NCBI GenBank assembly: GCA_003024785.1
Contig: PUQB01000097.1
Span: 538,310-602,309, forward strand
DNA length: 64,000 bases
Source of the DNA: Selaginella tamariscina
Lineage: Eukaryota > Streptophyta > Lycopodiopsida > Selaginellales > Selaginellaceae
Direction: 5' to 3'
Below the pieces are notes generated by a model. It had not been told where the DNA came from and made no database searches. It was given only the letters and a program-made list of their open reading frames with translations. Both the position numbers and the translations under genes were made by a program. Below, one piece after another: positions 1-51,659 of this stretch. Each line of letters begins with the position of its first letter. Within the stretch, counting starts at the first letter, position 1.

Positions 1-909
1 GGTCATATTGTGTTGTTGGATGTCAATGATGTTTTGCTTCATCAACAAAGGCTTGAGGATAGAAAAAAAGAAATCAAACAAAGAGATTTCATTCTTTGTC
101 ATGATAAATTTCGATATGATATCATTTTTCGCCCGGGGTTGAACCGTCTCTTTTAAAAGCTTAAGGAGATGGGTGCACTTGTGGGGATTTGGTCATGCAT
201 GTAGATTCACAACTTGACACCGCTGCTGAATTTGCTTAAGAAACATTATAGTGTTGCAGAAGAGGTGATTTGTAAAGATTTCATTTTTGACCAGCGAATA
301 TATTATAAACCTCTCAAATTTTATGATATAAGAAAGGAAAGCATGCCATACTTCTTCAAGAATGAAAAATTTATTGGGCTTCATGGGGAGATCAATTAGT
401 TAAGGATAATGAAGAACGCACATATCTTAATGGTATACGACTCTCCTCAAAAGGTTATGCTCAACCAAAACATTGTTTATATCCATTCAATCACTTTCGA
501 CCCATATTTTGATATCAATATTATGGATGAGCTAGTAAACTACTTAGATACGTGCCTTAGAAAGAAGAATTTCAAAAACTTTTGTGAGCAATATCCACCG
601 TATTAAACATTTCCTAAAGCTTTTCTTTCTCGTGATTTTGAATTTTATAAAATGAAAGAGAGCAACTGGGCACTTTACAATATTATTCTTAAGGAACGTC
701 ATTTTTTAAATGAATCTTTATGCAGACCTGGTCTTATCACATCTTATGTATTAACAAGGATGGCAACTCCTAATTGGATTCGTGAGAGTGTTACGTGGTG
801 GCAACAACATCAAGATATTAACCAAAATGATTCGATTAATCCGAAGAGTGATGATTTAAACAAAATGAAGAGATTTCTCTGTATGGTTAAAGAGAAAGTA
901 TTTATATAA
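1..909 (+). pseudogene. NLI/FCP1-type HAD phosphatase-like pseudogene, copy 1 (5' end outside window)
   Basis: Frame fragments read in order as a plant NLI-interacting-factor/FCP1-like HAD domain. They give a motif-I block VLLDVNDVLLH at about 16-50, RPGLN near 133, then LTPLLNLLKKHYSVAEEV and ICKDFIFDQRIYYKPL. Motif III follows as NAHILMVYDSPQKVMLN at about 415-465, and the C-terminal block is MKESNWALYNIILKERHF. Known family members dephosphorylate phospho-Ser/Thr, for example on the RNA polymerase II tail. In motif I the catalytic pattern DxDxT is DVNDV, so the second Asp is replaced by Asn, as in some plant homologues. Reading frames change at least three times and stop at 384-399, 606 and 909, so it is almost certainly inactive. 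A second copy lies at 15.5-16.8 kb in the same orientation. Confidence 0.6.
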
Positions 910-2927
910 TAAATTAATATGTTGATAAGGAAATGATTTCATTTGTAATTATGTTTGATAGTATTTTTTAATTATTGTAAACTATTTTTACAACGAAGAA
1001 TAATATGAATATTCTAAGATATTTTAAGAATATTCCTTAATAAGTAAGGTTATTGAAGGATTAATTTGTTAATTAATTAATATTTAAGGTTTAATTATAT
1101 ATTAATTAAATAATTAATTAATAATTAAAATTTAAGTATTAATTAGCAGTTTATTTTATTCCCATTTTCATGTATCATGCCCATTTTAGTTACAACATGC
1201 ATTAGTATTAAACCCATGACACAACTCCAAAGGGTGTGCCTCATGTATTGTACCATGCGTTGTTTAACTTAATGTCACATGTTCATGTGACATTGTTTTC
1301 AAAATGTATGTTATTTTGCCATAACCACTGACTCAAGAGTTACACTTAGTGTCACAAATATGACTTATAAATGCAAGCTTTAGAACCCCTTTATGAACCA
1401 TAAAAAACTTATTAAAAGAACATGTCAACCAAGATCCCACACTCACAATTGGGCAAAAATATGTATGTGTCCTATTTAGTTATATAATGTTACTCTTAAC
1501 TTAATGTAAAGGAGACCTCAACCTTTGACCCTTAAAATGTGTATTTCGATAAAACCTTATAGATACGGATTTATTAATGTTAAGGATAGGCTACCCTAAA
1601 GGTAGGACATATCTTTATTGTCTGGAAGTTGAGGCGGCACAACAAAGGGTTATGCATTGATGACATAAGCTTGAGATTACATTGGTAAAAAAATAATAAA
1701 CTTAAAAATTCTTATTTCATATCCTACTTAATATATGTGATAGAGCCTCTCCTCCCCTTGTTTTTTTGTTTTATAAAGTGATATAACGCGGAATTTCATT
1801 TTCAATAGGAATATATTTGGTGAATTTAACCTAAAAACCCATTAACTGAGTGTAGAGTTAAGGCTTATTTGACACACCAAACTCACCAAAACTAACTATA
1901 AGCCTAATCGGAACATGAAAATTAAGGATAAGAGTTTTTTAAATGGAAGTGCTAGTTTCTTTTGTAAGTACCTAACGACACTGATCGAACCATCACTAGA
2001 TACTCAAGTGCATTAAGTGGGTATGTTTCCTAACACCTAGAGCTTATCAACATAATTTAATAGGTAATAACAATCAATATCCAAAGTAAAGAGTAGTCAT
2101 AATAAAAACTTTTTAAGTGGTTAAATGCCAATCCTAGAAACTTTCTCTAGAAACCCTATGAAATTTGATAAAATAATCTTTATTATGAATCCGTCTCTTA
2201 GGAATTCACACTCACAATTAATCAAGTTTATGGATAATGCTCACCTTGTGAGTCAGGATGTGTGAGCTAACCAAGCTACAAATATTATTACTAATTTGGC
2301 ATGGATGAGTCACTCTCTTCACAATATGCAAGTTGTAACTAAAATGGGCATGGCTATAGTCCCATTTCCTAATAATTAGCAATTTTAGCTATTTAATTAG
2401 CATTTTCTAATATTAAAGGAATATTCTTTAGAATATATGTTTGAAAATAGAATATTCTTTAGAATATTCTATTTTGTATTCTACCCTTTAATAAATTATA
2501 GCATTCATTGAACAAAAATTAATAACATTATAAAAGTAGAAGGTATTAAATTATATAATATATTGCCTAATATAACAATTAAGGAAGAGCATAAGAGGTA
2601 CATTATATAAATATTGATGTTGTTATTAAAATATTAATATTTAAATATAACATTATTAATTAAAAATTTGTAGTAGTAATAATATATATATAAAATCCTA
2701 TAATAATATAGTCAATCTTCCATATCATTTTTTAAATTTATATAGTTAAGTAAACAATTTGGTACTATTATTAAAGAGTTTATAATAATTATGAATATTA
2801 AATATATGATATTTTATAATTTTGTAATTGCTTTAAGCTTCAGAAAACATACATTCCCTTGCAGTTTTGTTAATCGTGACTTTATCAACGCTTCTTGACA
2901 TCCACCCATATCGAATGGATTTAACAT
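910..2927. other. AT-rich spacer without a recognisable gene
   Basis: About 2 kb of AT-rich DNA between the phosphatase remnant and the DUF7869-like gene. Up to about 1195 it still matches the sequence downstream of the second phosphatase copy (16779-17030). I see no open frame with recognisable protein similarity. It contains the inverted repeat described separately and several short GAATATTC-type palindromes near 1005-1035 and 2415-2480. Confidence 0.6.
1176..2351. repeat. Inverted repeat pair (1176-1200 and 2327-2351)
   Basis: The 25 bases at 1176-1200 (beginning ATGCCCATTTTAGTTACAAC) recur as the reverse complement at 2327-2351 with one mismatch. The similarity continues more loosely outwards through AT-rich sequence that includes the GAATATTC motifs on both sides. 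A related direct copy with CACT for CATT lies at 17002-17025, downstream of the second phosphatase copy. The arms are about 1.1 kb apart, so this may be a fold-back element or the result of a local inversion. No coding capacity is seen between the arms. Confidence 0.55.
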
Positions 2928-5900
2928 TTATAAAACATGCTGGGTCTTTTTGATTGGGAACCATGTTTTCTCTAGGCATCCATTATATCTTTCGCTCTCC
3001 TTCTCGTGTCGCCTTTTTTGTGGTTTGAACCATGCAACCTTAACAATACTATTTTTTGTGATTACTTCAGGTGTGTCGATAATTTGACCCATCCAAATAG
3101 GCTGATTATATGACGCATCTGGAGTAATGAGAACCATCATTAGTTTTTGAAGATCCTGGCAGCAATCAAAGTATGCTTTAGGTTTTTGGTTCCTTTGTCC
3201 AACAAAGTGTGGGGTTTGCACTTCCACATCACTACTGGCTTCTATGTCGTCTGTGCTCAGTGATGTCATTTCAATCTCCTCTCGCCACCTTGTTTTAGGC
3301 CAAAAAGGGTGTTGCAATTCTGTACTTGTGACAGTAGGCCCTTCCAACTCTCGAACAACAGTCTCCCAATAGTCAACCACATGCTTATATAGTTCTGAGT
3401 AACCAGTTGCCTTATCAGAATTCTTTGGCATCGATTTTTGAACCCATGCCACATATTTTTTGATGCCATCAATAATAACCTCTTGTTCCTTGAGCTGGGC
3501 ACTCAATGGAATAGGGTCTGGTTGTCCTTCTGGGAGAAGTGGCTTTCCATTCTCTCCACTTTTGAAGAGCATTAACCCCTCTTTCGGTAACCACTCCTGC
3601 TCTGATGGCCGTAACTTGTACTGCATAATAGGTATACCATCTCGTATGGAGAAAAAGAATTGTAGCGGCACAAGGTGACCAACTAAAGAATCACTCCCCT
3701 CTTTTATATACTCCTTGAGAAATTTTTTGAAGTCTGGCACCTCAGTCACAAGCAAAGCACAACTTTTTTTGGAGATGCAATTTTCAAAAAGATTCATCAT
3801 ATGCGGTAAGGTAAGTGCACTTGTCCTTTTTGTAGAGTTGGAGACCTTGCTGAAGAACGCATCAATATCTTCATGAGTGTGACCAACCATAAGAAAACTG
3901 AGCGTGATTGTTTCAAACACACCTTTGGCAACAAGCATTGACAAGTATGCTAGCACATATCTAGAAAATAAAAGTAAGTATGAGCTTGAGAAACCCTTAA
4001 GTAAAATGATTTACCTATTTTTGTTCTCGCCTGCACAATTATCCATCTGTAAAAGCAAATGACGAGGAAGCTTATTTGATGTTGAGGACACATGTACACT
4101 ATTTGAGCTAGATCCCTCCACTGAACCTGAACTCTCAACAGGGCCATCTGTTTTTTGTGCAGGTTGCTGACAATGCCTCTCATATTCCCAAGTAGCCTCA
4201 AGTGCAGACGTGTTCATGAGAGCATTATGTAAAGGTTGAAGGTGTTGTTTCTTCACTTTGAGATCACCGATAGGACTTGTCTGTGAGTGGGCTTCAAGGT
4301 TTCTGAAACACATGGCCAACGACCCAATAGTGAAATTGGAGTCGCTAGACCAATGTGGAAGTGAAAAGTGTCCATATGATTCACAACCGTGTCCATGTGT
4401 TAGCACACCTGTCAATGAAATCGGAAGTTTCATGACATTTCCAAGGCACTTTGGTGTTGCAACGAGCTTTGGAATGCTGGTCTTTGAATGATCCATCTTG
4501 TCATGGATCAAGCACAGGTACTCTGATGGGCGTGACACAGAAAGCATGCGGTGTGCATAGTACTGAGACCGGCAAGTTTGTTGCGCAATCATGTGGGCCT
4601 CCATCTTCTTTTGAATGGCAGTGATCTCCACCAAGGTTTTTGCACAAGCCTCTGCAGCCTTCAATGATGTACAAGTGTCACACTTGGAAAAGCTAGAGTG
4701 TTTTGCAATCTCCACATCCTTAAAATGAGTATTCCATATGTTGTTGAAGGTACCAGTGCAGATTGCTTGCAGCCCCATCAAGCTGAGGCACTTGTTCACA
4801 TGTTCACACAGCTTCAATTGAGTGTAGATCGAAGGCAAAACCTTGAGATTTTCCCTGACCCCTGCATTTGTGGTTCGGCATTTGTGAGGCATCCTGTCTG
4901 CATTTGCTTCCACAAAAGCCTTGAGTATCTCTATGGCTGCCATAATGTGAGAGCGGGTTTTGACCAAGCCAGTGTTCCCATGTACTGAGGTTCGCGCTCC
5001 ATCTAACCACTCATCCCTCCGACGGTAGAACGTGGTCTTTGGGATCCCATATATACTGTACCAAGCTTTGAAGCAGATGGCCACCTTATTAAATACCATG
5101 GATGTACTCTGATAACCTGTGTCCGAAGCCATTCCATCAATACACCCAGTTAGTGCAGCATATACAAACTCATGCCTTTGCTTTTGGGTGAGCGTACGAA
5201 AGACATGTCTACATTGGGTAATTTCATTCCGGTCTGCCATCTGACAACACTTCTTCTTGCAGCAGTCAATCGTGGAAATGCTCGTAACACTTTCGGAAGA
5301 TGTAGGATCCATCTTCATCCTCTTGCTGAAACATGTAGGGGAAGATCTGCAACCCATGAATCGCCTTTTTCTTAAATAGGACCAATGCAAGGAACCTCTT
5401 CAAATATGAGTTGTTCTTCCGGGTTGTTATTATTGAAATCCAACCCAGAATATGTTGAACCATCTTGCCGTCTTAATTCAGATGTTCGCCACCTCACGAG
5501 GGATCCAGGATGCAAAGTGCCATTAGGTGAAACCTCTGTCACAACTACACCCACGAAGTCGGACCCTAGTTTCTCTTCTGACACTGCTTCCATTGGATTT
5601 ATAGCTGTGATGATGCCTCTCCCAACCTCAATCTCATGAAGAAAGAGAATCACCTCATCCATCACAGCAGGCAAGCCATCATCTGGAAAACTCGTGCTAC
5701 TGTTTGTTTGTGACTCTGTATATTCTGTGTCAGCCTTGACTTCATCCAAATTCCACAATACAGGAGAACCCTCCTCAAATTCCATTCCAGGAACCTCAAC
5801 ATGCTTGAAAATGGTGTTCACCCATACGTACACACAAGATCCTTGGGCAATATTGTGACATGATGCATTATCATCTCGAACTTCCACAGTTCCAGTGCCA

Positions 5901-5962
5901 ACTATCTCGTTGTTCCGAAGAAGACATACTTTATCTCCAGTATTATACATATTGTCCTGCAC
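2928..5962 (-). CDS. DUF7869-like protein with RNase-H/transposase-like acidic motifs
   Basis: Three open segments run 5962-5372, 5390-4015 and 3960-2928. The last two are joined by a clear 54-bp GT-AG intron (3961-4014) that keeps frame. The N-terminal segment resembles the N-terminal conserved block of plant En/Spm-like transposase proteins (motif NEIVGTGTVEVRD). The middle has a Cys cluster (CCKKKCC), an HTH-like stretch (IPKTTFYRRRDEWL) and a CDTC pair. Three acidic blocks follow: LIHDKMDHSK, LLQMDNCAGENKNR across the intron, and VGHTHEDIDAFFS. The last is the hallmark of DUF7869 proteins found in non-seed plants, algae and protists. I infer a D-D-D/E nuclease fold from their order and spacing. 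How the N-terminal segment joins the rest near 5372-5390 is unresolved. It is transcribed away from the palindrome arrays. Confidence 0.65.
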
Positions 5963-7106
5963 ATAAAAATTGTGTTATTTATGATATCTGTTTATGCAAT
6001 ATTTGTAAGAAATCATAACTGCAGTTGCTTAATAATATGCATGTGCAATAATACATAATTATATATAAAAATAATATCTCATGCTTTATTAATATAACTG
6101 ATGGGCGGGATTAATCCCGCCGCAGACTCTACCCCTTCAGAGTGAGTCGGCGGGATTAATCCCGCCGCGACTCTACCCCATCGGAGAGAGTCGGCGGGAT
6201 TAATCCCGCCGCCGACTCTACCCCGTCGGAGAGAGGCGGCGGGATTAATCCCGCCGCCTCTCCCTCAGAGAGAAGGCGGCGGATTAATCCCGCCGACTCC
6301 CCTCGAGAGAGCGGCGGGATTAATCCCGCCGCGGGCTCCCTCCGACGAGGAAGTAGCGGCGGGATTAATCCCGCGCGGGCTCCCTCCGACTAGGAAGTAC
6401 CGGCGGGATTAATCCCGCCGCCGGATCTTCCTCGTCTGTGAGAGTCGGCGGGATTAATCCCGCCGCAAATTCCTCCGACGAGGAAGAGGGGGCGGGATTA
6501 ATCCCGCCCACAACACTGACGACGGAGAATAGGCGGCGGGATTAATCCCGCCCACAACTCTGACGACGGGGAATAAGCGGCGGGATTAATCCCGCCCACA
6601 ACTCTCTCCGAAACTATGATTTCAAAGAGATTCGGGATGAATTCTGCCCACAAATATTTAAAACAGGGAAGTAGTGGCGAGATTAATCCCGCCACCCCTT
6701 CTCTGCCTCCTAAAATGGTTGGCGAGATTAATCCCGCCGACAACTCTTTCTAATAAATTCAAGTAAATCATTATCAGTTGAGAGAGTTATCGGCGGGATT
6801 AATCTCGCCGCTCTTTTTAAGAGGCGGAGAAGCATTGCCCGAACTAATTCTGCCATAGCTATGAAAGAGATGGTGGCGGGATTAATCCCGCCACCTCTTC
6901 AAAGAGGCGAAAAAAAAGGCCGGATTAATCCCGCCGCCCCGGCTAACCGAGAATACTAAGTTAAAAGTATATTTAAACGGGATAAATCCCTAACAGAATA
7001 TATTGTAATCCTAATGCATTCCTAAATCCCTAAATTCTAAAATTTAAGAGAGAATGTAAGAGAGTGAATCTTTATAAATATATCTAAATTTGTTTATAAT
7101 ACTTAC
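5957..7106 (-). other. Possible 5' intron of the DUF7869-like gene, enclosing palindrome array 1
   Basis: On the minus strand a consensus donor (ACAA then GTAAGTATT) ends an exon at 7107. A good acceptor (TTTTTATGTGCAG) opens the first coding exon at 5956. The 1150-bp interval holds the whole first palindrome array. The open frame upstream of the donor (7384-7107) would join out of phase, so the upstream exon is more likely untranslated. No transcript is available to confirm the intron. Confidence 0.35.
6103..6938. repeat. Palindrome array 1 (GGCGGGATTAATCCCGCC units)
   Basis: About 18 copies of an 18-bp perfect dyad, GGCGGGATTAATCCCGCC, are spaced roughly 40-60 bp apart in otherwise AT-rich DNA. 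In the first part of the array the spacers extend the dyad: AGAGTC precedes and GACTCT follows the core, so each unit could form a stem of about 16 bp per side. Right-hand units drift (GGCGAGATTAATCCCGCC, GGCGGGATTAATCTCGCC). A decayed unit, CGGGATAAATCCC, follows at about 6978-6990. Every core contains ATTAAT at its centre. The function is unknown. A site for a dimeric DNA-binding protein or a cruciform-forming repeat are the simplest readings. Confidence 0.95.
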
Positions 7107-8120
7107 TTGTAAACAGCACTGAAGGCGCCGTGCTTTCCTATAAACAATAGCGCACCCAATTTAATGTCGCTCCTGAGCTGATCACTAAGAAGAAAAAAGA
7201 AAATCTGAAGAGTGAAAATGAAGAAACCCTTGCCGGAGAAAGAACCAGATCTGAATTTGAGTGGGAAATTAAATGTATTTTCAAATTTACATGTCAGACT
7301 GATAATACTTATGTCAGAAATTTTTTGAAATAACAGAAAAGAAAATTTAAGATGAGTTGAAACAAATAACCGACAGTCTGACATATATACTCTCCAATTC
7401 CAATGAGTGTTTTAAAATTGCATTTAATGTCATTCAAGTGCTTCAAGCTGTTTAATATTACGAAATTTTTGTAATTATTCTATTCTTAATATTCAAGTAT
7501 ATATTATTAAGTTTATATTATATATATATATACACTAATACAATAAATAAATTGATATATTATTATGTATCATTTAAAATATATTCATAGTCTGTTTATT
7601 ATTATTATTTTCTTAATTACTCGAGTAATTAATTTACATTTCCTACTATTAATGGGATATTCTTTTATTTTCTTAATATTCAAAGAATATTCCAATATTA
7701 AACATATTATCATAATTAAATTAGTCTTATTCTTAATTATCTCAGTAATTATTCTACATTTGTATATATTAATGGGATTTTCTCAATTAATTTGTTATTA
7801 TTTCAAGAATATTCTAGTGTTAAACCTTATTATCAATATTAAATTAATATATATTATTAAAACTATATATGGCTATATATTAGATAAAATCATATATTAT
7901 TATGTATAATTTAAAATATGTTCATAGTGTGTATATTAATATTATTTTCTTAATTATTCGATGTTTGTTTTGCACATATTATATATAAACACAATCATAA
8001 ATTTATATATACATGTGCACACGCATTAGAAGCACTTACAGAGACACATATGCACACACATGCACATTGCCCTAAACCAAACTTGAGAAATTATATGTTG
8101 CTTCTTTATTGAAAAACATC
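7107..8120. other. AT-rich central spacer
   Basis: A kilobase of AT-rich DNA between the two palindrome arrays. Open frames at 7103-7384 (minus) and 7565-7909 (plus) have low-complexity Ile/Leu/Phe-rich translations typical of AT-rich sequence and no family motif. If the flanking genes are divergently transcribed, their promoters would lie in or near this stretch. No convincing TATA box or other signal was assigned. Confidence 0.5.
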
Positions 8121-8124
8121 ATGT

Positions 8125-8790
8125 TCAACGCATGTATGATCTATATGTACTCAGTGTGTGTGTATGTAACACATTGAATTTACACATGTAATATATATGT
8201 ATGTCTGTGTGTATACACGTGTGTATGTATATATGTGTACTAATATAATATATGCAATGTGTACGATTTTCATTTGTTAACACTCTATCTCTTCTCTCAT
8301 ACATACACAGTGTCACCATGCATAATCCCTTCTCTCATACATACACACCATGCATGATCATGATCCATAATATGTAGCCTGTCTCTTCTCTCATACATAC
8401 ACACCATGCATGATCCATAATATGTACTGATGTTACAATATTATGTAATATGTATAATGTATATCTGTGTATAACACTCACTCCTCTCATACATAAACAC
8501 CATGCATGATCCATCCTAACCCTAAACCCTAAACCCTACATTGAATTTACACATGTAATATGTATGTATGTCTGTGTGTATACACGTGTGTATGTATATG
8601 TGTGTACTAATATATCCAATGTGTATGAATTTAATTTGTTAACACTCTCACTCTTCTCTCATACATACACACCATGCATGATCCATGTAAATATGTACTG
8701 TCTCTCTTCTCTCAAACATACACACCATGCATGATCCATAATATGTATTGTCACTCTTCTCTCATACATACACACATACATGATCCTGTA
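8125..8790. repeat. Tandem and dispersed direct repeats
   Basis: Units built on CTTCTCTCATACATACACAC followed by CATGCATGATCCATAATATG recur at least six times between about 8285 and 8790. A longer block of about 130 bp at 8165-8300 repeats at 8540-8660. Between them, at about 8514-8540, are two or three copies of the plant telomere-type unit CCCTAAA. This is a non-coding minisatellite region. Confidence 0.8.
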
Positions 8791-9649
8791 CTCTGTCTCT
8801 CTAATATTAATATATACTAATATGTATGTAGGAATGTTTAAAGTTTATTCATGGGCTAAATACAAGTATACATAAAAACATCCCAACGGATTTTATATAA
8901 ACCTACTCTTATTCCCATCCCCCTAAACCCAAGCATCGTTGAGTGTTCGAAGAAGAAAGTAATCGATTCAGACCTTTACGGGTAGTCTCTCGCCCGGATA
9001 CTGTCTCGAGCTTCAATCTCCAAACCACAGCTCACAAGCACACACCAAAGAAAAAAGCAAACACAAACAACGAGGCCAAACCAATCGCAGCAATGCCCAA
9101 AGTAGCTCCATCACAACCACTATAGCATACCACATACACATCCACCAAGATCAAACATCAAATGCCTAAGGATATGCCCAATACGCATCAGAATGACCAC
9201 TTATTGCAAACACACCAAACCTCTTCGTAAACAAGAACCATCGTTGCAGTTGCCCTCTTAGAAGATACCATTAAACCTTAGAGCAATCCCTAGCAAACTG
9301 TATAGCAAATGCCCAAACTAATATGTATGTATGTCTATGTGTATAATACTATGTGTGTATATATGTATCGCTGCATGTGAAACTTTAACACTTCATGGGA
9401 CACACACGTGTTAAACCCTTGCATGATATTTTATTCTTGGGGTGTATGTGATACACCCACGCACACGCACACGCTGATAATATAATGAAAAAATATTTGT
9501 TTAGGGCGAATCTATAGTTTATTCTTTTTAGGGTTTAAGTATATTCTTAGAAGGAATATTCGATTAGGGTTAATATATATTCTATTCCTTTTAGGGTTTA
9601 AGTATATTCCTAGGGTTTGTAAGGCGGCGGCAGCGGCAGCGGCGGTGTG

Positions 9650-9936
9650 GAAATCTCCTTCTCTCTCACACACAGGTGAGATCTCTCTCTCTCACACACG
9701 CACACTCCTATGAGTTTATTTATTTATTTTATTCACATATATATTTATATGTGTGTGTATCTTAATAATATAATTTAGATCTCTATCTCTCGCACACACA
9801 CGCACACTCGTATACATATATACACACAGATATATATATATATATATATATCTGTATGTATATATATATATATATATCTCCTCTCTCTCTCTTCTCTATA
9901 GATCTCTATCTCTTGCACACACACGCACACTCGTAT

Positions 9937-9976
<40 letters not shown>

Positions 9977-10051
9977 TATATATATATATTATATATATAT
10001 CCTTCTCTCTCTCTTCTCTATAGATCTCTATCTCTCGCACACACACGCACA

Positions 10052-10104
<53 letters not shown>

Positions 10105-10645
10105 CTAGAATATATATATATATATCTCCTTCTCTCTCTCTTCTCTATAAATCTCTATCTCTCGCACACACGCACACTCGTATACATATATACACACAGA
10201 TATATATATACATATACACACACACACAGATATATATATATATATATTCTATTTATTTATCTATATATATGTGTGTGTGTGTGTATCTGTATAATTTTAT
10301 TGATTTGTTAATTGTATCTCTCGCACACACACGCACACTCCTGTATATATATGTGTGTGTGTGTGTGTTTGTTTATCTGTATGATTTATTTTTTCACACA
10401 CGCATACACACGATATACATATACACACATATATATATATATATACCTATGTATACATACATATATTATGTGTACCAGTATCTGTATAATTTTATTTATT
10501 TATTTATCTCTCGCACACACACGCGTATATACATATACATATAGTGTGTGTGTGTATCTGTATAATTTTATCTGATTTGACTATCTCTGGCACACACACG
10601 CACTCTCCTACACACACATATACATTATATATCTGTGTGTGTGTG
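9650..10645. repeat. Compound microsatellite region (TA, CA/TG, CT) with higher-order repeat
   Basis: Long runs of TA, CA or TG, and CT alternate. A higher-order unit of roughly 110-130 bp is repeated at least four times, marked by TCTCTATCTCTCGCACACAC. Open frames here translate to Cys/Val or Ile/Tyr repeats and are not genes. A CAG/GTGAGA donor-like site occurs at about 9675, but no matching exon was found. Confidence 0.9.
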
Positions 10646-10651
10646 TGTGTA

Positions 10652-11833
10652 GCGGCGGGATTAATCTTGCCGCTATATGGTGAGACGTGTGTAGGCGGGA
10701 TTAATCCCGCGCTATATAATTAGCCACTCGGCGGCGGGATTAATCCCGCCGCCATTTCAGGCCCGAGTGAAGGGCCTGGGCGGCAGAATTAATCCCTCCA
10801 CCTATGCATGCCCTGCGCGGAATCGGGTGGGATTTATCCCGCCGCCATTGGCCTGCCTGAAGGGCCTAGGCGGCGGGATTAATCCCGCCGACTAAGGCCC
10901 GAGTGAAGGGCCTGGGCGGCGGGATTAATCCCGCGGCGTACGCATGCCCTGCGCGGAATCGGGCGGGATTTATCCCGCCGCCATTGGCCTACCTGAAGGG
11001 CCTAGGCGGCGGGATTAATCCCGCCGGATTTCGCACAGGGCATTGGCGTTCGGCGGGATTAATCCCGCCGACTAAGGCCCGAGTGAAGGGCCTAGGCGGC
11101 GGGATTAATCTCGTCGCGTATGCATGCCCTGCGTGAAATCGGGTGGGATTTATCCCGCCGCCATTGGCCTGCCTGAAGGGCCTAGGTGGTGGGATTAATC
11201 CCACCCAATTCTGCGCAGGGCATTGGCGTCCAGCGGGATTAATCTCGCCGCCTAGGGCCCAAGTGAAGGGACGGGTCGGCGGGATTAATCCCGCTGCCCT
11301 GCGCGGAATCGGGCAGGATTAATCTCGCCGCCAAAGGCCTGCCTAAAGGGCCTAGGCGGCGGGATTAATCCTGCCCGATTTCGAGCAGGGAATTGGCGTC
11401 CGGCGGGATTAATCCCGCCGCATAGGGACTGAGTGAAGGCCCTGGGCGGCGGGATTAATCCCGCCGAGCCTTCAATGCCTATTGGAGGAATGAATCCCGC
11501 CACCCTTCCTTTTTTTCTCCATTGGTGAGTCGGACCAATCCCAAACGTTTCTGTCTGAGACGTAGAAGGTTTACAACATACCAATGGAGAGAACGGGGAA
11601 GGGTGGGGAAATTCATTTAACCATCCCTTACATGGTGGGCGAGATTAATCCCACCTCCTTTCTGGAGTCACTGAAGGGGTGTGCCAAATAAATCCTGCCC
11701 AGTTCTCTTTGAGACCGAAAAGGGTGGCAAGATTAATTCCGCACTCCCGTTCAAGGCCTCCAGAAAGGTGGTGAGATTAATCCCGCCCACTCTTTTAGGA
11801 GGCATTGAAGGGGTGGCGAGATTAATCCCGCCG
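10652..11833. repeat. Palindrome array 2 (GGCGGGATTAATCCCGCC units)
   Basis: About 25 copies of the same 18-bp dyad as in array 1, in a GC-rich block. Spacers differ from array 1: here they are GGGCCTAGGC before and AAGGCCC or TTGGCC after the core, again extending the dyad. A higher-order unit of about 135-180 bp is repeated, marked by GGCCTGCCTGAAGGGCCTAG. Variants such as GGTGGGATTAATCCCACC (11185-11202) change both arms together. Units degrade toward the right end (11640-11833), nearest the ParB-like gene. The two arrays lie between the two divergent genes and I found no intact unit elsewhere in the window. Confidence 0.95.
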
Positions 11834-12137
11834 CACCTTCCATGTGAATATATATGTGCTTTTATCATCTTATCATAATATTTCGAGTAAAAACTAGGAA
11901 ACTATGTAAAACTGTCCAGAGCTCACATTTGTGGTGGTTCTAAAACGAAATGTTATCTTTCCTTTGAACTAGCACAAAGGTGAGCTTTGGACAATTAATT
12001 CCGTCTACTTCTCTCTGTGTATTATTTTTGTATATTTGGGTTTATACAAGTGTGTGTGCATTTTATATGATTTGTATTCATAGTGTATTATTTTGCAAAA
12101 AGACGATTTAATTAAACAAGGAGATCGAGTCATTAGT

Positions 12138-15100
12138 ATGGAGTCGTCGTCAAATTCTGGGTAAGAATTAAAATAAAATCTGTTATACTCGGATATGTGC
12201 TTGAACTAATCATTTTTGTATTCAGATGTGGAATTGAGGTAACATTAAAGACGAGAGCAGGAGAAGAGATGGGCAGGGGGATTCTGGAATCAACTTGGCC
12301 ATATTTCAAACTAAACGGAAGCGCATTGGAACAACCATGGTTGCTGTCAAACTAACCTCTGTCACATCGCATGGACAAGCAAAACAATGGAAAGTGGGTG
12401 TGCTAGTCAAGCATCCGAAAGCATGCTGTGAACCCAGATTGAACGATGCTCGACACATATGCCTCGTTCCATCCAATGTCACGTTCTCGGATCCAGAGGT
12501 CACCAGTTACAACATTAATTTCGGGGGTTTTGTCGACTTGTGGATAATGACGTTCACGTGTTCACTAATGATGTTGACCGTGGAGTTCGTCTTCAACTCA
12601 ACGAAAGCCCATCTATAAAGGGGATCCATCTGGATGTCTACTTCGAAGATCTTCAGACTCATCGAGTAGGTGTATTGTCAGGAGATATTGCTTCACAATA
12701 CAGAAAATCCACAAGTGGAGCAATCGTCCCTCTTCACATTGAAGAAGAACACAGTGACATCATAAAGGAGATTGAGAGGGTGGCTTGGTCTCAGGTTCTT
12801 TACAGATCACGTTCAATTTGCTTAGCAAATTTCGGGAGCTTGAAGAGTGTGCCGAGAACATTAGAACAGCATCAATCGGGGATCACACATGTTGATTCGG
12901 ATCGTAGAAGAAAATCATTAGTCGTTTTGTCAACTGCACCTGTGGCGTCCCATGCTGCAATAAGCCACAAGGAAATGATGTTGGATGATAGGATTTACCA
13001 GTGTAGGGTTAAGTATTGCAGCGTCAACCCAAACTTCAATTACAGGCCACTGAATCAGGAACATGTAGCTGAGCTCATGGAGAAGATGAAGGACGACAAT
13101 TCTTACACCGTTCCACATAATGCTGTTTTGTGCGCATACTACGAGAGACACAAAGGCGCTGACAAAGTGTGGATCACAACACCGGAACAAATGAGGAAGG
13201 TTCAGACGGAGAATAGAAAATCAGTTAAGTACTACATCATTAGTGGCCAGCACACAATAACGGCAGCCCAACGACTTCTCAACGAACACAACAAAGGAAC
13301 GATGGCAACAAAATTTTCCGAGCATACCCGTGAGAAGCTGACAAAAAGATCGGCGTTTTTAACGAAGCCGAATCTCACAATCGAGCAGTACCATAAGTTA
13401 TTGGCGGAATGGGACGCTGCAGACACCAACCACTACAACAGCAAAATATGGGAGAAGTTCAAACACACGCGAGCCGTGTGGGAATCTCTTCAGCGACCGC
13501 AAAGAGCTACTGCAGGGAATACACAATCTGCAGAGTACCGGGTAAGCAAATTGTTTGGGGGGATTTATCTCGCCGGTATATTAATCTGTCTTTTTCTCAG
13601 AGAGTTGAAGAAATTGTAGCAGTTGATTTTGCCCAGGTGGGCGGGAAGGAAACATCCTTTTTGATGATGTTGATTTCTTGTCCTGAGGATAGGATCTTTG
13701 CGAAATGGTTGGGGATTATGGAATCCTTTGCAAAAGGAACACTGAAAAAGAAGCAGACAAGTGAAGTGAAGCCCTCAGAGAAGTCTGCAAAGAAACCCAG
13801 TAAACGCCGAAGGCTAAGTCTGTTCAATTTATAAAGGATGTAGACAATGATTTCAAACTCACATGGTTGAAGCCTTTAAATGGAACAACGATGGAGGAGA
13901 TGGAAGTCTTGGCTGATTTGGTGATTGATGGCAAATTACAGATTAACAACAGCAGCCCCACCTCTCCTTTTCATCTCAAGGCAATGGAGTTGAAGACGGT
14001 CAGGCACTTCAAGGAGTGGTTGGGAATACACTGCACAAACTGGGTTGGATTTCGGCTTCAACATACGAAGAGGTCAACAAATATTTGTATGTGAAAACGA
14101 TGATATGCTTGTCGAATGGGTGAATCAATCGGAAGATCTGGGCAAGAATCTATTGCACGCCAACGCCAAAAAGGAGAACATTGCGATGACGCCTTCTCTT
14201 ATGGCAGTCCTTCAGCAGCGGAGAACCGAGTTGAACCTTATAAAGGAGGATGTTACGAATCATGACAAGCCCTACAGATGTTTGTTGTTGGATTCGGAGA
14301 CTTTATGGGGTACCATCACTGCTTGTAGGAAACTGTTTTAATTGTTCGTGATGGATCGGCGGGTGTCAAAAAATCCTTCGACAGACAGGACACTAGAGGA
14401 TTTGGTGGAGAAACTTAGCCGTGCAAGCATGTAAAAGAAGGTATATTATTGAATTCATATGTACTGAAGAATGATTTATTATTGAATTCATACTTGCACT
14501 TTGCTCATGTCACCGATACCTTTGCCTTCTCCTTTGCCAAGAGGAATAAACATCGTTGGACAGGATTTTATATGAATGATGCTGATCCGAAGTGCATTGA
14601 TTCGGTTGTTCACTTGGTTGTTAGGAATGCGCCAAACAGTTTCAAACTTCCAAATGACTGGCCAGGCATCTGTTTGCACTCCAACGGCCCTGAACCTCCA
14701 TCCGATACACCGATAGGTGAGAGTGACGTATTCGGCAATGTACGTTATCCAAACATCACAAGTCAAGCGGCACGGAGCATCGTCAACTTGATCAGGGGTC
14801 CTCACAGTGATGCGTGGGTTTTTGACTACTGCACTAGGGGGTCCGTCTTGAAGGAGTGTTACCTTCGGGATACATGTGTTTTGCCGTTGAAAAGGATAAG
14901 ACCATGGTTGAGGACCTGAACAAGTGGATAGATAGGTTCTCAACTGACTACCCCAACGAATCCATAAAGGAGTATTTGAGAAAGTTCCCTCCAGATAAGT
15001 GCGATAGCTCTGAAGACGAATCTGGTTCAATGTCGGAGTCTGAGGACGAACTTCAATCAGATATTAGACCGGAAGTTATCTCGAGGAGTACAGAACATTT

Positions 15101-15251
15101 GCACACTCCATTACCCATGGAAACATCAATAGAAGATGCAGAAGATCTTGAACCATCTCACAAGCGGCTTAGACCTTCTTCGCCTCACTCAGAAGGTAAT
15201 AGCGAAGAAGAATTGTTAATGAATTTTAGAGTGACGAATAGTTGTAAATGA
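12138..15251 (+). CDS. ParB-like/DNA-methyltransferase-like fusion protein (frame broken)
   Basis: ATG at 12138 begins MESSSNSG. A 65-bp GT-AG intron (12161-12225) follows, and a second 59-bp GT-AG intron (13542-13600) joins EYR to RVEEIVAVDFAQVGG in frame. The central region has YYIISGQHTITAAQRLL, like the ParB/sulfiredoxin G-x-H signature, preceded by LNQEHVAELMEKMKDD, like the ParB N-terminal helix. The C-terminal part reads DAWVFDYCTRGSVLKE, then (next frame) GYMCFAVEKDKTMVEDL. This resembles motif I and the following strand of N6/N4 DNA methyltransferases. I found no DPPY or SPPY catalytic motif. An acidic Ser-rich tail follows. Single-base frame changes occur near 12340, 12525, 13805, 14040-14340 and 14850, so it is decayed or the sequence has indel errors. 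Fusions of ParB-like and methylase domains are known in phages and bacteria. Confidence 0.55.
13557..13576 (+). repeat. Degenerate palindrome unit inside the second intron
   Basis: GGGGGGATTTATCTCGCCGG lies inside the 59-bp intron 13542-13600. It differs from the array consensus by a few substitutions, of kinds also seen in the arrays: ATTTAT for ATTAAT and CTCGCC for CCCGCC. The unit makes up a third of the intron. Confidence 0.6.
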
Positions 15252-15483
15252 GTGTAACATAAGGCATTTTTGTATATTTCTTTTATATTTGTACAGAAAA
15301 TAAATTCTCAAGGATTAATGAAGCTTTTAGTTCAAACATGGGTCACACATTAACAAGGTAAATAATATACCTTGATAATTTTAAGGTCAGCTAATTATCA
15401 TTTTGCAGATGTAATGAAACAATTGAGAACATGGATTTTCAGCATTGGCATGAGGTAAGAGAGGGGTTTGGCGACAATTTCTT
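15252..15483. other. Short spacer before phosphatase copy 2
   Basis: AT-rich DNA between the end of the methyltransferase-like frame and the upstream part of the second phosphatase copy. No coding signal is seen. A plausible 3' end for the preceding gene lies in the AATAAATTC stretch near 15298. Confidence 0.4.
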
Positions 15484-16778
15484 GTGCCACATGTCAGAAT
15501 GACAGAGTTCATGCAGGAAATGGATAATAATGCAGCTCAAAACATCGTTACCATGGGGGCCACTTCAGTTTTTTCATCATCATTTTTATTGGCTTCAGTT
15601 CCGAAATCAATTTCTTCAGCGCATGCAATATCTGAATCTTGTAAGGATGATGTACAATTAAATGATGAAGGGATAGGCAACGAGATAGTGGCAACGGATA
15701 AATGTGAAAGGGAGCAAACAAGTGATTTGCAAAGTATTCAAGAGGCAACGCTATCTCATGTTACTCATGGCCATATTGTGTTGTTGGATGTCAATGGTGT
15801 TCTGCGAGGCAACGCTATCTCATGTTACTCATGGCCATATTGTGTTGTTGGATGTCAATGGTGTTCTGCTTCATCGACAAAGGCCCGAGGATAGGAAAAA
15901 GAAATCAAACAAGGAGATTTCATTCCTTGTCATGGTAAATTTTGATATGATTATTATTTTTCGTCCAGGGTTGGATTGTCTCTTTCAAAAGCTTAAGGAG
16001 ATGGGTGCGCTTGTGGGATTTGGTCATGCATGCAGATTCATAACTTAACACCGCTGTTGAATTTACTTAAGAAACATTGTAGTGTTGCAGAAGAGGTGAT
16101 TCGTAAAGATTGGATTTTTTACTAGCGAATGTGTTATAAACCTCTCGAATTTCACAATATAAGAAAGGAAAGCAAGCCATACTTCTTCAAGAATGAAAGA
16201 ATAATTGGGACTCATGGGGAGATCAGTCGCTTAAGGATAATGAAGAATGCACATATCTTAGTAGTAAACGACTCTCCTCAGAAGGCTATGCTCAACCAAA
16301 AATTGCTTGTATTCATCCAATCACTTTCGATCCATATTCTAATATCGATATCATGGATGAGCTAGTGAACTACTTGAATACGTGCCTCAAAAAGAAGAAT
16401 CTCGAAAATTTTTGTGAGTAGTATCCACCGTATTATACATTTCCTAAAGCTTTTCTTTCTTGTGATTTTGAATTTTATAAAATGAAGGATAGCAATCAGG
16501 CGCTTTATAATATTATTCTTAAGGAACGTCATTTTTTAGATGAGCCTTTATGCAGACCTGGTCTTATTACATCTTATGTATTAACAAGGATGGCAACTCC
16601 CAATTGCATTCGTGAGAGTGTTAGGTGGTGGCAACAACATCAATATATTGACCAAAATGATTTGATTAATCCGGAGAGTGATGATTTAGACAAAATGAGG
16701 AGATTTCTCTGTATAGTTAAAAAGAAAGTATTTATAAATAAATATAAACATGTTGATAAGGAAATGATTTCATTGTAA
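15484..16778 (+). pseudogene. NLI/FCP1-type HAD phosphatase-like pseudogene, copy 2
   Basis: An N-terminal Ser/Glu-rich segment starts at about 15484 and runs into THGHIVLLDVNGVL (motif I, about 15764-15805), then LLHRQRP after a tandem duplication. Next come RPGLDCLFQKLKEMGALVG, CYKPLEFHNIRKESKPYFF, motif III NAHILVVNDSPQKAMLNQ (about 16245-16300), and the C-terminal block ALYNIILKERHFLDEPLC to about 16778. The order matches plant NLI-interacting-factor phosphatases. Several frame changes and stops (for example at 16046 and 16418) make it inactive. It is a diverged direct copy of the sequence at the window's left edge, and similarity continues downstream to about 17030. Confidence 0.65.
15742..15869 (+). 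repeat. 64-bp exact tandem duplication across HAD motif I
   Basis: Bases 15742-15805 are repeated immediately as 15806-15869. The unit encodes the HAD motif-I segment, so the duplication adds 64 bases, shifts frame and splits VLLDVNG from VLLHR. Copy 1 at the left edge shows only one unit in the part visible. Confidence 0.9.
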
Positions 16779-17030
16779 TTATGTTTGATAGTATTTCTTT
16801 ATTATTGTAAATTATTTTTAGAATAATATGAAATTCTAAGATAGTTTTAGGAATATTCCTTACTAAGTAAGGTTATTGAAGGATTAATTAATTAATTAAT
16901 TAATATTTAAGGCTTAATTACATATTAATTAAATGATTAATTAATAATTAAAACTTAAGTATTAATTAGTAATTTATTTTATATTCCCATTTTCACGTAT
17001 CATGCCCACTTTAGTTACAACGTGCATCAA

Positions 17031-18163
17031 TGACTCATCAAGCCCTTTTAACTCCACTAAATGATTTTCTAAAGACTCTTCCTAATTTTTTTTTAAAAAC
17101 AATCTTTATGAATGATATCAATACGAGTTATAACTTCTAAACTATAATATGCAAACTTAAAAAAGATTTCTATAGTAACATTACAGGTTGTCTTATAAGT
17201 CTAAAATCCTAATTTTTTTGTTTTTTATGAATCACTTTATTATCCTTATATAAATAAATAAGTTGAATCCACTAATAAGGTTATTAATAAGAATGTTTTA
17301 AAGAAGTATAATATTTTTATACTTTATAACCAACTCCTTGGTGTGTATGAATCTTTTCATTAACAAATTACTTGTGAATTCCATAACTTACTATAATGGT
17401 GTTGTAAATAACTGGTGCTATCTTTACAATAAAAGCATATCACTATTCAATGATTTCCGGATACTTTATATATCAACTAATCTTTTATATATAATGGACT
17501 TACTTTTAAAATATTCTAGTAATTTCATTTTTCCATTTTTTCTTATTATATTTAAAATGTTTTATTCTTAAAATACTTTATGTTTAGACCATTCACTATA
17601 TGTCTGTTTCTCTCTCTCTCTCTATATATATATCATGTATGTATATAAACTATATAATTAATACACCCATTGGGCATAAGTTAATTATTAGGTTAAATAA
17701 GATTCATTTAGGTTAATGAAATCAAATAAAATTATTAATAAATTCTTTTTTTTAAAATGGAACCAGAAAATAATCTTAAATTATATACTATTAGTATATA
17801 AGTTTCTAAGCGCCCTAATTGCCACATAATATATTATATATATCAAAATTTGAATTTCTATATATATCATGGCTTCATATGATTTTTTTGTATATACATA
17901 CTCGTTACATTGATAATCTCTCCTTGTCACCTTTCTTTTTACCTCTATATATATATATATATATATATTTTGTTCTTCAGATGAAATCTAATTCTTACTC
18001 GTTGAATTGGTCTACAATGCTCTTGCTGACACTGGTTTCCTTATGTTCACAAGTTTCATGAGCATATGCCACCACGAATGAGCTATTAAGCTGGAAGGTG
18101 TAGCGCACGACCCTGATCACGTTATCATATGCCGTACTCTTGCAACGTGGAGTGACTTTCATA
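17031..18163. other. AT-rich spacer; one tiny ORF with a signal-like N-terminus
   Basis: No recognised gene. The only item of note is an ATG at 17981 opening a 26-codon frame (17981-18061). It has a hydrophobic core, WSTMLLLTLVSLCS, like a secretory signal, and follows a TTCTTCAG acceptor-like site. The frame stops at once and nothing identifiable follows, so it may be a remnant of a secreted-peptide gene. Confidence 0.35.
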
Positions 18164-28380: not shown

Positions 28381-28958
28381 ACAGAATACCATTCCATTCC
28401 GGAATGTCCCATCCAACTTCCGTACCATACAAAACCTCTGAATAAATGTACTGTTTTACGTCTTACTGCCCTCCATATGTATATACGTGTGTAGCATCTA
28501 GTTTATACCCATCTGAATATACAGAGAAGAAAAAAATTTCTTATCTAATAAGATATACACATATATGTGTAAGTATACCTCTATACGTAAGACATTTTAT
28601 AAGATGTATTATAAATGCATATAAATACCATATGTTTACATAGATATTTATATAAATATAGACAATTTATAAAATATAAGGTGAACATCGTATACTTAGT
28701 GCATATGAGTATATAAATATTATTATTACTCAAAATGTAACAAAAAATCACTACAGTTTAATCAGTGTATAATCTTTAACCGTTAGATTGGTGAGGGTGT
28801 TAAATTTGTGAGGGTACTATTCTAAGGGATTTGGTAATGATGTAAATTAAATAAATTAAACAATAAACTCTACACGACACGTGTCGTTATTGCATGGATA
28901 GAAATAAGGGGAATAGATACCTAGGGTTTCTTTTTGGGACATCGCTTGCTTATACTCT

Positions 28959-29473
28959 ATGGCGAGATCAACAATTTACAAGGCACTGCTCCTGTCTCTA
29001 ATTTTCATGTTTGCTGCTCTATTAGGTAAATCAATGCATATCATGCTGCATGTGTTTTTGTTAGTTGTTTAGTTCATGATTTGTGATTCCTGGGAATCCG
29101 TGGGGTATTTGTGGGAATTGACGAATGGATCTAGGTGGTTCTCGAGTGGCTCCAATATGTGGGAAGCAGGACATAGAGGTCCGCCCAGGAGCGCATTATG
29201 GAGCATGTCTATGGTGAGACATACAGCGTCAGATTCCGTAATTTGTGCAAGTGCCCAGCTAGGAATGTGCACATGTTATGCGGTGACTTTGCTACTGCTA
29301 TGGACTATGGCGATAATGAGCCTGAAATTCTTATTGAGAATCAGCCTGGTGATTGTATTCTGAGGAATGGGCACCCACTGAAACCTTATAAGTGGTATGG
29401 GTTTAACTATACCAGTCATTCTGGCATGATTCCTCTTGGCACGGTGAGAGAGGCTGAATTCTGCAAGGAATAG
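28959..29473 (+). CDS. TPD1-like cysteine-rich secreted protein a (copy A; one-base frameshift)
   Basis: Exon 1 is 28959-29025 and encodes a signal peptide (MARSTIYKALLLSLIFMFAA). Intron 29026-29134 is GT-AG. Exon 2, 29135-29473, gives VAPICGKQDIEV, then YSVRFRNLCKCPARNVHM, GDCILRNGHPLKPYKW and a C-terminal AEFCKE. Six conserved cysteines and the C-x-C block fit the TAPETUM DETERMINANT1 family, whose founding member is a secreted ligand of the EMS1/EXS receptor kinase in anther cell specification. Outside seed plants the roles are largely unknown. One extra C in the CCC run at 29184-29186, absent from copy B, breaks the frame. It sits 660 bp from MCM3, divergently. Confidence 0.7.
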
Positions 29474-30426
29474 TAGTGCAATATCTTCTTTAATAAACTT
29501 TGTATTTGTGAGTTCTTTCTATGAGTTAATAAGTTCTTTATCCTGTCCTGTTGATGCAACACACGCAAGACTGTATGCTTATAATTATACGTATTAAAAT
29601 ACTAATTTAAACAAAAACATTTAAATTAATATCCATAGCTAGTTTTACATTGTGGGTGTATTCGTTATATTAACATATGAATAAAAAACATATATGTGTA
29701 TATACATACATATGCCCATTTATAATTATTTTGTATTTGTATATATGAAAGGTATATACATAACAATAAACACGTATAATACATTCTCTATATTTAGGAA
29801 GGTGGCACATAAAATTTACAAACCTAATCTATATCACAAATAATCAGAAAGTATGACCAGAATTGACCACTAAAAATAGAATAACTGTGGGCTGTTTTGT
29901 GGATATCTTTTAAATAGTATTGAACTATTGCAGGCATTATTAAAGTCATTAATATTTTCTTTTGTTTGGTCTAAGAATTGTAAGTAGGTATTTACCGATC
30001 TTAAAGAGATTTTGACGACTCCTTTAATTTTGATATATCTTAATTATACTCGTCCTTTTATCTTGTGTGTAAATGCTTTTAACATTGGTCTCAAGGCGTA
30101 TTGATGCAGGACAATATGAGTGTATCCCTTCCGGTGGGTAACGGGATCGATGCCCCTCGCTTCCACCAACGAGAGAACTTGGAATATAAAGATGTGTATA
30201 TTCATTAGTTAAGAGCAAATATCTGATGATTATCAAAATCCATTACCTAATAATAATATTTATACATGCAGCTGTACACATGGATCTCACGTAACTAATT
30301 TAAGAAGATATTTTTATGCTCATAATTAATGCATACACGCGTACATGCTGACATGTGTCGTTTTCATCTGAAGATATAAATATGAATAACAAATTTTTTT
30401 TCCCTAGATTTACAATTTAGGAGTCC

Positions 30427-31212
30427 ATGTTTCTGTCTAACAAGCTGGTTCTCATGGCAAATTCAGTCTTGGCAATCCTCCTGATTGCGTTCGTGTTCCT
30501 CGCTGCTGTGAAAGGTACACTCTGCTTAATTTGTTCGTTCATTTATCTGTTTTTTTTTTTTTTCCCCTTTTTAGTGTATACAGATATCTAACTTTTTGTT
30601 TAAGTTGGAGAATTTCTGAATTAGATTTTGACCTCTATGGGTTATGTATGGGTCTGTCTCTATCTCTCTCAATTAGAATTTATGGATAGTTGTGGGTCTC
30701 TCTCTATTTTATTGGTATCAATGTGTTTTTCCTGAGAAATTTGAGAATCCTTCTTGGCTATATGGGATTTGTGTGTATTCATGTAGCATTCATGTTGGGG
30801 GTATATCCATAGTGTTCTCTGTGTGGTATTTTGTGGGATTTTTGGGAATTATATGTTGGGATTTTTCTGGGAATACTTACATGGGAATTCTAATGCAGGT
30901 CACCGGCAGGGTGGCGGAGTATGCGATGGCAACGATGTGAACATTGAGCAGTCCCTCCTCACCAACGACACCGGTGTCCTGAGATATAGAGTGGAGATCC
31001 GTAACTTCTGTTTTGGGTGCTCAGCTAGAAATCTTCATATCAACTGTCGTGACTTTTTTACCATAGATGATCTCAATGTTTGCCACGTTATTCAACCTGG
31101 GGAATGCATTGTGAGGAACGGAGGTGATCTTCCTGAAGGAGAATGGCAGGTGTTTGAGTACAATAGCACTGTTAAAGCTCTCTTCACCTACAAAAGTGCA
31201 GACTTTTGCTAA
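30427..31212 (+). CDS. TPD1-like cysteine-rich secreted protein b (copy A; intact)
   Basis: Exon 1 is 30427-30514 and exon 2 is 30899-31212, with a 384-bp GT-AG intron joined in phase (AAA G / GT CAC). The product is about 133 residues. It has a signal peptide with core ANSVLAILLIAFVFLAA, then GGGVCDGNDVNIEQSL, RYRVEIRNFCFGCSARNLHI, CHVIQPGECIVRNGG and a terminal SADFC. Eight cysteines include the six typical of TPD1-like proteins. It should be secreted to the apoplast and act as a peptide ligand, by family analogy. This is the only one of the four TPD1-like copies in the window that is open throughout, so it is the likeliest to be functional. Confidence 0.85.
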
Positions 31213-32963: not shown

Positions 32964-33085
32964 ATGGCCTCTCTCATATCTCTTAACGATCTATGTGCAA
33001 TTGCTTTTATAGCTAATGGACGGCATTTGCCCCCAGGCACGTACGATAAATTATTGTGTTCCAATGTTGTATTTAGGTTTGGAGA
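32964..33085 (+). pseudogene. GDSL esterase/lipase, copy A, 5' part (split by copia)
   Basis: ATG at 32964 opens MASLISLNDLCAIAFIANG and runs to VVFRFGD, the start of the GDSL catalytic block. The copia element enters at 33086, within the codon of the Asp before the catalytic Ser. The remaining 41 bases (37851-37891) supply SLTTANNN before a second insertion. The rest of the gene is inverted at 51660-52297. GDSL enzymes are secreted Ser-Asp-His esterases or lipases. This copy cannot encode one. Confidence 0.75.
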
Positions 33086-33222
33086 TGTTCAGAATTAAAT
33101 CACAGCCGCACCAAGATCAAACCTCAACCTTGGCGGATAGTACGCGCTGCACAACGGCTCACATTCGTGCTCGCTAAGAACCCTAAAACAGGGGTCCAAC
33201 CCTAGTATATTGGAGCATCAGT

Positions 33223-36200: not shown

Positions 36201-36350
36201 GTCACACAACCTTGCCATCGACATAAGGTTTTTCTGCATGCCTGGGACGTGCAAGGCGTCTTTGAACATCATCTCCCCACCGTCCTGAAGTGGGAGTGTC
36301 AAAGTGCCTCGACCAGCAATGTCCAATTGGGCATTGTTCCCCAACACCAC
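33223..36350 (-). pseudogene. Copia pol: integrase, reverse transcriptase, RNase H (broken)
   Basis: Fragments in order on the minus strand are: GAG-pre-integrase (36350-35943); integrase with CESCVLGKHHRRSF and the catalytic-core FIDDFSRLTKLFFL (36012-35530); the downstream integrase segment with MAERKNRTLVNAARSLLAHA (35537-35097); and reverse transcriptase with KARLMAKGFTQVRGVDYEET (34636-34427) and MDDLLITGG (from 34206). RNase H follows with VVALSSAEAEYIALTSGCKE and ADVLTKPLGRAQ to 33223. At least four frame changes interrupt it, near 35530, 35090, 34640 and 33700. Confidence 0.85.
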
Positions 36351-36377
36351 ATCACTACTTCTTTGAACTGGGATATA

Positions 36378-47354: not shown

Positions 47355-47359
47355 ACACA

Positions 47360-51650: not shown

Positions 51651-51659
51651 AAACTCAGA

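Follow-up and report, generated by a model that had tools for sequence, protein, structure and literature searches.

The window analysed here is the whole stretch of 64,000 nucleotides from Selaginella tamariscina (contig PUQB01000097.1, positions 538,310 to 602,309 of the forward strand), and the subject of this analysis is a multi-copy element of 14,702 bp in its left part. The element carries a DUF7869 gene (gene A), an orphan coding gene (gene B) transcribed in the opposite direction, two arrays of an 18-bp palindrome between them, and a third gene near the right end. The element and its ends are located as follows.

2326..17027, no strand assigned: whole element, 14,702 bp from one terminal inverted repeat (TIR) to the other, with ends common to six other full-length copies
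2322..2325, no strand assigned: left target-site duplication, CAAT
17028..17031, no strand assigned: right target-site duplication, CAAT
2326..2352, minus strand: left 27-bp TIR, one mismatch against the pattern taken from 1176-1202, with 0.00 matches expected from shuffled sequences
17001..17027, plus strand: right 27-bp TIR, two mismatches against the same pattern
1..1202, plus strand: right-end fragment of the same family and orientation, 89% identical to 15833-17027, starting 26 bp upstream of the window

The homology between the two copies of the third-gene region at 1-1202 and 15833-17027 ends at 1202 and 17027, and its final 27 bp have an inverted match at 2326-2352. A count of this 27-bp pattern in the window gave its source and two matches and none elsewhere, where shuffled sequences lead one to expect 0.00. 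From the stop of the homology together with the inverted match, the element was therefore placed at 2326-17027, with the termini ATGCA..TGCAT. Loose local alignments of the ends were dropped in favour of stricter ones, and the strict alignment gives the 27-bp inverted repeat a score of 44; because the best of 200 simulated sequences reaches 46, this score is no proof by itself, and the case is carried by the pattern count and the other copies. The interval 2928..15251, which an earlier note on this DNA had taken as the candidate element, is too short on both sides, as both ends of the element fall outside it. That note mentions neither the TIRs and the target duplication nor the third gene and the shifted reading frame of gene B in the window copy.

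The genome (300,702,823 bases in 1391 contigs) was searched with probes, and the copy counts obtained are lower bounds. A 1-kb probe from the centre of the element was found in at least 40 places (the best 40 of 2055 candidates, the window's included), with 98-100% identity over its first 0.8 kb, and a 2.75-kb probe from gene B in at least 41 places (of 3284 candidates, 40 were scored); near-full-length matches, the window's among them, make up 28 of these. Ten contig regions were examined, of which six are full-length copies and four are incomplete, rearranged or partly fetched: C530 is rearranged and has two left ends, the match in C1355 starts from 2703 and lacks the left end, only 10 kb of C823 was fetched, and the region upstream of the window consists of fragments. 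The six full-length copies are 13.0-14.1 kb long and have the ends deduced from the window, with one extra base at the right end of C775. The 12-bp flanks are unlike one another between copies. The 4-bp target duplication is perfect in four of the seven copies (CAAT in the window, ATAT in C1205, TAAA in C1204 and GTAT in C484) and imperfect in the other three (C224, C472 and C775); at a chance of 0.0053 per copy, the probability of four or more perfect duplications is 2.8e-8. Gene A, gene B, both palindrome arrays and the right-end gene are present in all seven full-length copies, with gene B interrupted in C224 and partly N in C1204 (1020 N).

The earlier note had proposed one large mobile element comprising both genes and the palindromes, and had named unlinked genes, or ordinary single-copy host genes, as what would speak against it. 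The proposal is strongly supported by the six other full-length copies, which have the same ends and parts and different flanks; the further copies, which it had recommended seeking in order to define the ends, have the ends deduced from the window, and the genes are linked and multi-copy in them, which favours an element. A segmental or tandem duplication of an ordinary host region would be in line with the two further right-end pieces that lie directly upstream in the same orientation. However, the occurrence on many contigs, the different flanks, the precise common ends and the 4-bp duplications make such a duplication next to inconceivable, and the copies examined refute it. With its 27-bp TIRs, its 4-bp target duplications (perfect in four of the seven copies), its dispersed copies with common ends and its predicted RNase H-fold transposase, the element has the features of a Class II TIR (DDE) element. 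Very probably, the core of the locus is a large cut-and-paste DNA transposon of a vascular plant, of the autonomous type.

The predicted transposase is encoded by gene A, which consists of the following parts.

5396..5950, minus strand: 5' exon, with ATG at 5950 in an open reading frame (ORF) at 5372-5974; several in-frame GT..AG choices exist for its 3' boundary
4015..5399, minus strand: middle exon, ORF of 462 aa, with HDKMD and LQMDN motifs; PF25273 at 5.5e-13
3961..4014, minus strand: 54-bp intron bounded by GT..AG, predicted from the sequence
2928..3960, minus strand: 3' exon, with the GHTHEDID motif of DUF7869; PF25273 at 8.5e-27

The match of PF25273 in both long exons, on the minus strand, bears out the earlier description of gene A as DUF7869-like. 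Its description as recombinase-like is supported by a predicted structure: the model of a gene A relative has the RNase H catalytic fold, and three acidic residues are conserved. On the strength of this model, gene A is predicted to encode a DDE transposase with an RNase H fold. The beginning of gene A has a Transposase_23 match (E 0.07) that does not reach the cut-off. Named relatives of gene A come from Riccia sorocarpa, Physcomitrium patens and Mya arenaria, the DUF7869 alignment had no match among viral contigs, and DUF7869 is mentioned in none of the papers searched. Two of 47 DUF7869 relatives have an additional domain, in one case an OTU-like protease domain (1.7e-4) and in the other a TNP1/EN/SPM Transposase_23 domain (6.6e-4).

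When gene A was compared with the majority of eight stretches, the window, C224, C1205 and C472 showed 0-1 substitution in 3.1 kb, and the remaining stretches 6-37 substitutions. The value of 0-1 substitution indicates that part of the family moved very recently. The copies are nevertheless frame-broken despite the few substitutions: C472 has one substitution and eight indels in gene A, and C1205 has seven substitutions and 26 indels in gene B. Single-base indels account for 57 of the 71 frame-breaking indels in gene A and for 142 of the 176 in gene B. C224, whose gene B is interrupted by about 0.6 kb, was left out of the ten-row majority for this gene. We infer from the ratio of indels to substitutions that an unpolished long-read assembly fits better than decay. 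A Selaginella tamariscina assembly of 300.73 Mb, built from PacBio data with Falcon, is tabulated in PMC8558194. Indels found in one copy only number 45 in gene A and 112 in gene B. That all frame-breaking indels are private to single copies was ruled out, as 26 of 71 and 64 of 176 are shared; the shared ones may be real, so that noise may not be the whole explanation.

The space between the starts of genes A and B is occupied by the palindrome arrays and an AT-rich centre.

6104..6935, no strand assigned: palindrome array 1, on the upstream side of gene A, with 16 sites of up to two mismatches, mostly 44-45 bp apart
10654..11832, no strand assigned: palindrome array 2, on the upstream side of gene B, with 21 sites of up to two mismatches
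6936..10653, no strand assigned: AT-rich centre of 3.7 kb without palindromes, rich in microsatellites
8831..9316, no strand assigned: 486-bp insertion that is not in the other copies compared, with the 15-bp direct repeat ACTAATATGTATGTA on both sides

The 18-bp palindrome GGCGGGATTAATCCCGCC occurs 37 times with no more than two mismatches, 17 of these sites being exact, where 100 shuffles lead one to expect 0.00. The earlier picture of a 6-kb centre filled with palindromes was correct as to their presence but not as to the filling, since they form two arrays beside the gene starts and leave 3.7 kb without any. The part of the centre at 8000-8830 is 98-100% identical in the best 40 of 2055 candidate places, and the region from 6.5 to 8.83 kb is about 99% identical in the first seven loci compared. 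The insertion at 8831-9316 is possibly a retroposed insert. The ratio of observed to expected CpG is 1.22 in array 1 and 0.94 in array 2, compared with 0.40 in gene A and 0.64 in the window. At gathering thresholds, Rfam has no match in the window.

The palindromes of eleven near-perfect units in array 1 agree to 99.0% and their spacers to 38-49%; for thirteen units of array 2, the agreement is 89% in the palindrome and 48-50% in the spacer. A caveat on this comparison is that the units were chosen by their palindrome. These values point to the palindrome as the maintained unit of the arrays. Between copies, an apparent 15-fold deficit of substitutions in palindromes relative to spacers was rejected as an artefact of misaligned repeats, because in a register fixed by the spacer the difference disappears from array 1 and changes direction in array 2; palindrome constraint between copies was accordingly not detected with this register. 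A degenerate copy of the palindrome lies in intron 2 of gene B in the window (13542-13600), and in several other copies the last site of array 2 falls within gene B and appears to be the same as this intron 2 site.

The block of array, centre and array (6104-11832) might be a separate element inserted between two divergent genes, as the arrays flank a centre of different composition and parts of them match each other in inverted orientation. In all seven full-length copies, however, both arrays lie between genes A and B, and none of the copies examined is without them, so that a separate insertion appears highly improbable.

Gene B lies beyond array 2 and has the following features.

12138..15251, plus strand: gene B, without detected relatives, frame-broken in the window copy and under purifying selection
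12161-12225 (65 bp) and 13542-13600 (59 bp), plus strand: introns of gene B, both GT..AG and predicted from the sequence, with a possible third near 14441
12986..13281, plus strand: ParB-like motif stretch, NPNFNYR ... ISGQHTITAAQRLL, recognised by eye only
14815..14900, plus strand: stretch like amino-methyltransferase motif I, recognised by eye only, with a frame change inside

The earlier note had remarked on tiny introns of 54, 65 and 59 bp in the two genes and on their transcription away from a shared centre. The introns are present in the sequence, each predicted with GT..AG boundaries, and gene A indeed lies on the minus strand and gene B on the plus strand. The description of gene B as ParB-like and DNA-methyltransferase-like was not confirmed. 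Gene B gave no convincing match of any kind in Pfam, PHROGs, NCBIfam or the PDB sequences, and none to a methyltransferase family in Pfam, PHROGs or NCBIfam; the profile and PDB searches returned a few rows at chance level (E 0.013 to 1.2), and the likeness to ParB or a DNA modifier is an impression from motifs. The ParB_N profile PF02195 has no candidates in the whole genome, and the same profile matches in 10 of 14 control genomes. A profile comparison with SopB of the F plasmid (hhalign) gave a probability of 0.14%, which does not stand out from 20 shuffled controls. No homologue at E <= 0.001 emerged from two protein searches (3358 and 7203 candidates), and neither tblastn against phages nor the viral contigs gave a match. 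The single-sequence structure model has a predicted local distance difference test (pLDDT) value of 35, too low for a fold to be read. The sequence VFDYCTRGSVLKECYLRHTCVFAVEKD resembles, by eye, motif I of the amino-methyltransferases of the N4C/N6A class, which are defined by this motif and by motif IV (DPPY or similar); the majority translation of gene B is without DPPY, and the nearest sequence by eye is DSETLWG. Because profile support is lacking and DPPY is missing, gene B was filed neither as ParB nor as methyltransferase.

The ratio of nonsynonymous to synonymous substitution rates (dN/dS) in the main exon of gene B, in comparisons of the window with eight copies, is 0.21-0.65 and so stays below 1 throughout. 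Three of these comparisons are significant at the 0.05 level, namely C823 (0.21, p 1e-8), C530 (0.35, p 1e-4) and C1205 (0.36, p 0.03). In the C-terminal stretch at 14500-14842, five of the eight comparisons have 1-2 changes, all of which alter the amino acid, and the other three give 0.35-0.70. On balance, gene B is a selected protein-coding gene.

In the mechanism proposed here, the gene A transposase, as modelled, would bind the ends, excise the element and join it to a target cut with a 4-bp stagger. The gene B protein would be an accessory protein acting on the element's own DNA, for which the two arrays upstream of genes A and B would be natural targets; its binding there could control the expression or silencing of the element. 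An analogy for such a control role is provided by TnpA of En/Spm and VANC of the VANDAL elements. If the ParB and methyltransferase motifs were genuine, the protein could also modify the array DNA, in the way proposed for algal ParB-methyltransferase transposons. That it acts at the palindromes is a tentative proposal, to which we give somewhat less than an even chance. The arrays may instead serve the transposase, or merely form inverted-repeat DNA or hairpin RNA unrelated to gene B. Inverted repeats other than the 18-bp palindrome also abound in them, and internal repeats bound by an element's own proteins are known from plant transposons. Their position upstream of both genes does not suit the first of these roles, since the transposase is expected to act at the ends, and this alternative as a whole falls slightly on the doubtful side. 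A more far-reaching version of the accessory role for gene B assumes a new eukaryotic transposon superfamily, defined by DUF7869, with a parS-like system in which a protein derived from ParB and methyltransferase binds and perhaps marks the palindromes, so that the promoters stay open against silencing; this version is considered unlikely.

Alternatively, the element could be a Sola1 transposon (Sola superfamily) of a land plant with a diverged ParB-methyltransferase accessory gene, as in Sola1-1_Ec32 of Ectocarpus. The Sola target duplication is 4 bp, as is the duplication observed here. In Ectocarpus, the section on the 21.5-kb Sola1-1_Ec32 describes a gene for ParB and methyltransferase domains opposite in strand to the transposase (PMC12477816), and a passage of another paper puts a Physcomitrella Sola1 on record for plants (PMC9033089). 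Against this, gene B is without ParB or methyltransferase profile support. Membership in Sola is thus a possibility to be taken seriously, but on the improbable side.

The third gene of the element and a duplication within it are located as follows.

15454..16740, plus strand: third gene, a HAD phosphatase of the NLI-interacting-factor type, frame-broken in the window copy
15742-15869: 64-bp perfect tandem duplication in this gene, a single unit in the full-length copies examined

The profile PF03031 is below its cut-off in the window copy (0.0014) and matches clearly in C224 (3.9e-9, 36.8 bits against a cut-off of 21.8). With C224 as the reference, five of the six other full-length copies have 0-3 changes in this gene and C775 has 22; the comparison with the older fragment at 1-1202 gives dS 0.18 and dN 0.07 (119 codons). 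The phosphatase is regarded as a captured or accessory gene.

Next to the element, two right-end pieces stand head to tail, one stopping 37 bp before the window and the next running from 26 bp before it to 1202, and an inverted left-end piece of the family lies further upstream (within 10 kb upstream of the window). That 1-1202 is the right end of a whole upstream copy was ruled out, as this piece is about 1.23 kb long and immediately follows another right end. Elsewhere in the window, the blocks at 28598-33086 and 56047-61049 are 89-94% identical and in the same order, which represents either an extensive duplication or an element present twice. Copia-like and Gypsy-like retroelement frames were recognised by eye at 33223-37367, 38337-43350 and 44290-55052, and these regions contain repeated motifs of 13-54 bp that include ATCCTGTAGGAA.

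These results point to a concrete role for the so far uncharacterised DUF7869 family, which occurs in plants and animals, as a probable transposase; the ends and target duplications defined here make copies of such elements recognisable in other genomes. In addition, a young multi-copy plant transposon offers a testable pair of protein and site, namely the orphan gene B, on which purifying selection acts, and the arrays of near-identical palindromes. If the gene B protein does act on the arrays, the element would be a land-plant case of a transposon that controls or marks its own DNA, which has so far been proposed for algae.

Among known systems, the PF25273/DUF7869 family includes gene A as a member; Pfam assigns it no function, whereas the present member belongs to a multi-copy element with TIRs and target duplications and has a predicted DDE fold. 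Retroviral integrases, Mos1, IstA and the transposases of V-K CRISPR-associated transposons (CAST) share the RNase H fold with the predicted model of the gene A relative, but their identity to it is 7-14% (rows 1-30 of the comparison) and their other domains and termini differ. The CACTA (En/Spm) elements are likewise large DNA transposons of plants, in which the transposase is accompanied by another protein that binds repeated motifs of the element, although such binding is only proposed here; they have CAC..GTG termini, a 3-bp duplication and subterminal repeats, in contrast to ATGCA.., 4 bp and central repeats in the present element, and CACTA membership is excluded because of the termini and the duplication length. 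Target duplications of 4 bp are also given for Ginger1 and AcademX in a passage of PMC10045372. Retrotransposons with DNA methyltransferases (DNMT; PMC5890265) and fungal TET/JBP transposons (PMC12730594), as far as the sections considered describe them, are alike in carrying enzymes of DNA methylation, but these are other enzymes, and an enzymatic nature of gene B is only putative. Among the matches listed for Selaginella with TIR or superfamily terms, none describes the element in the portions retrieved, and among those listed for ParB with transposons, the Ectocarpus paper is the only one on such an element. Iyer 2011 and Petroll 2025 are cited there for green and red algae. Its section on Sola1-1_Ec32 describes, as here, a giant DNA transposon in which a second large gene lies on the strand opposite the transposase gene, but in a brown alga, with a length of 21.5 kb and a protein of 1104 aa with predicted ParB and methyltransferase domains; palindrome arrays are unmentioned in that section and present here (PMC12477816). 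The same paper proposes, in the part considered, that algal ParB-methyltransferase transposon proteins bind and modify their own sequence (PMC12477816), and this proposal is the closest precedent for the putative action of gene B on element DNA. The element is best described as a known type of transposon in a new form, and possibly as a new superfamily.
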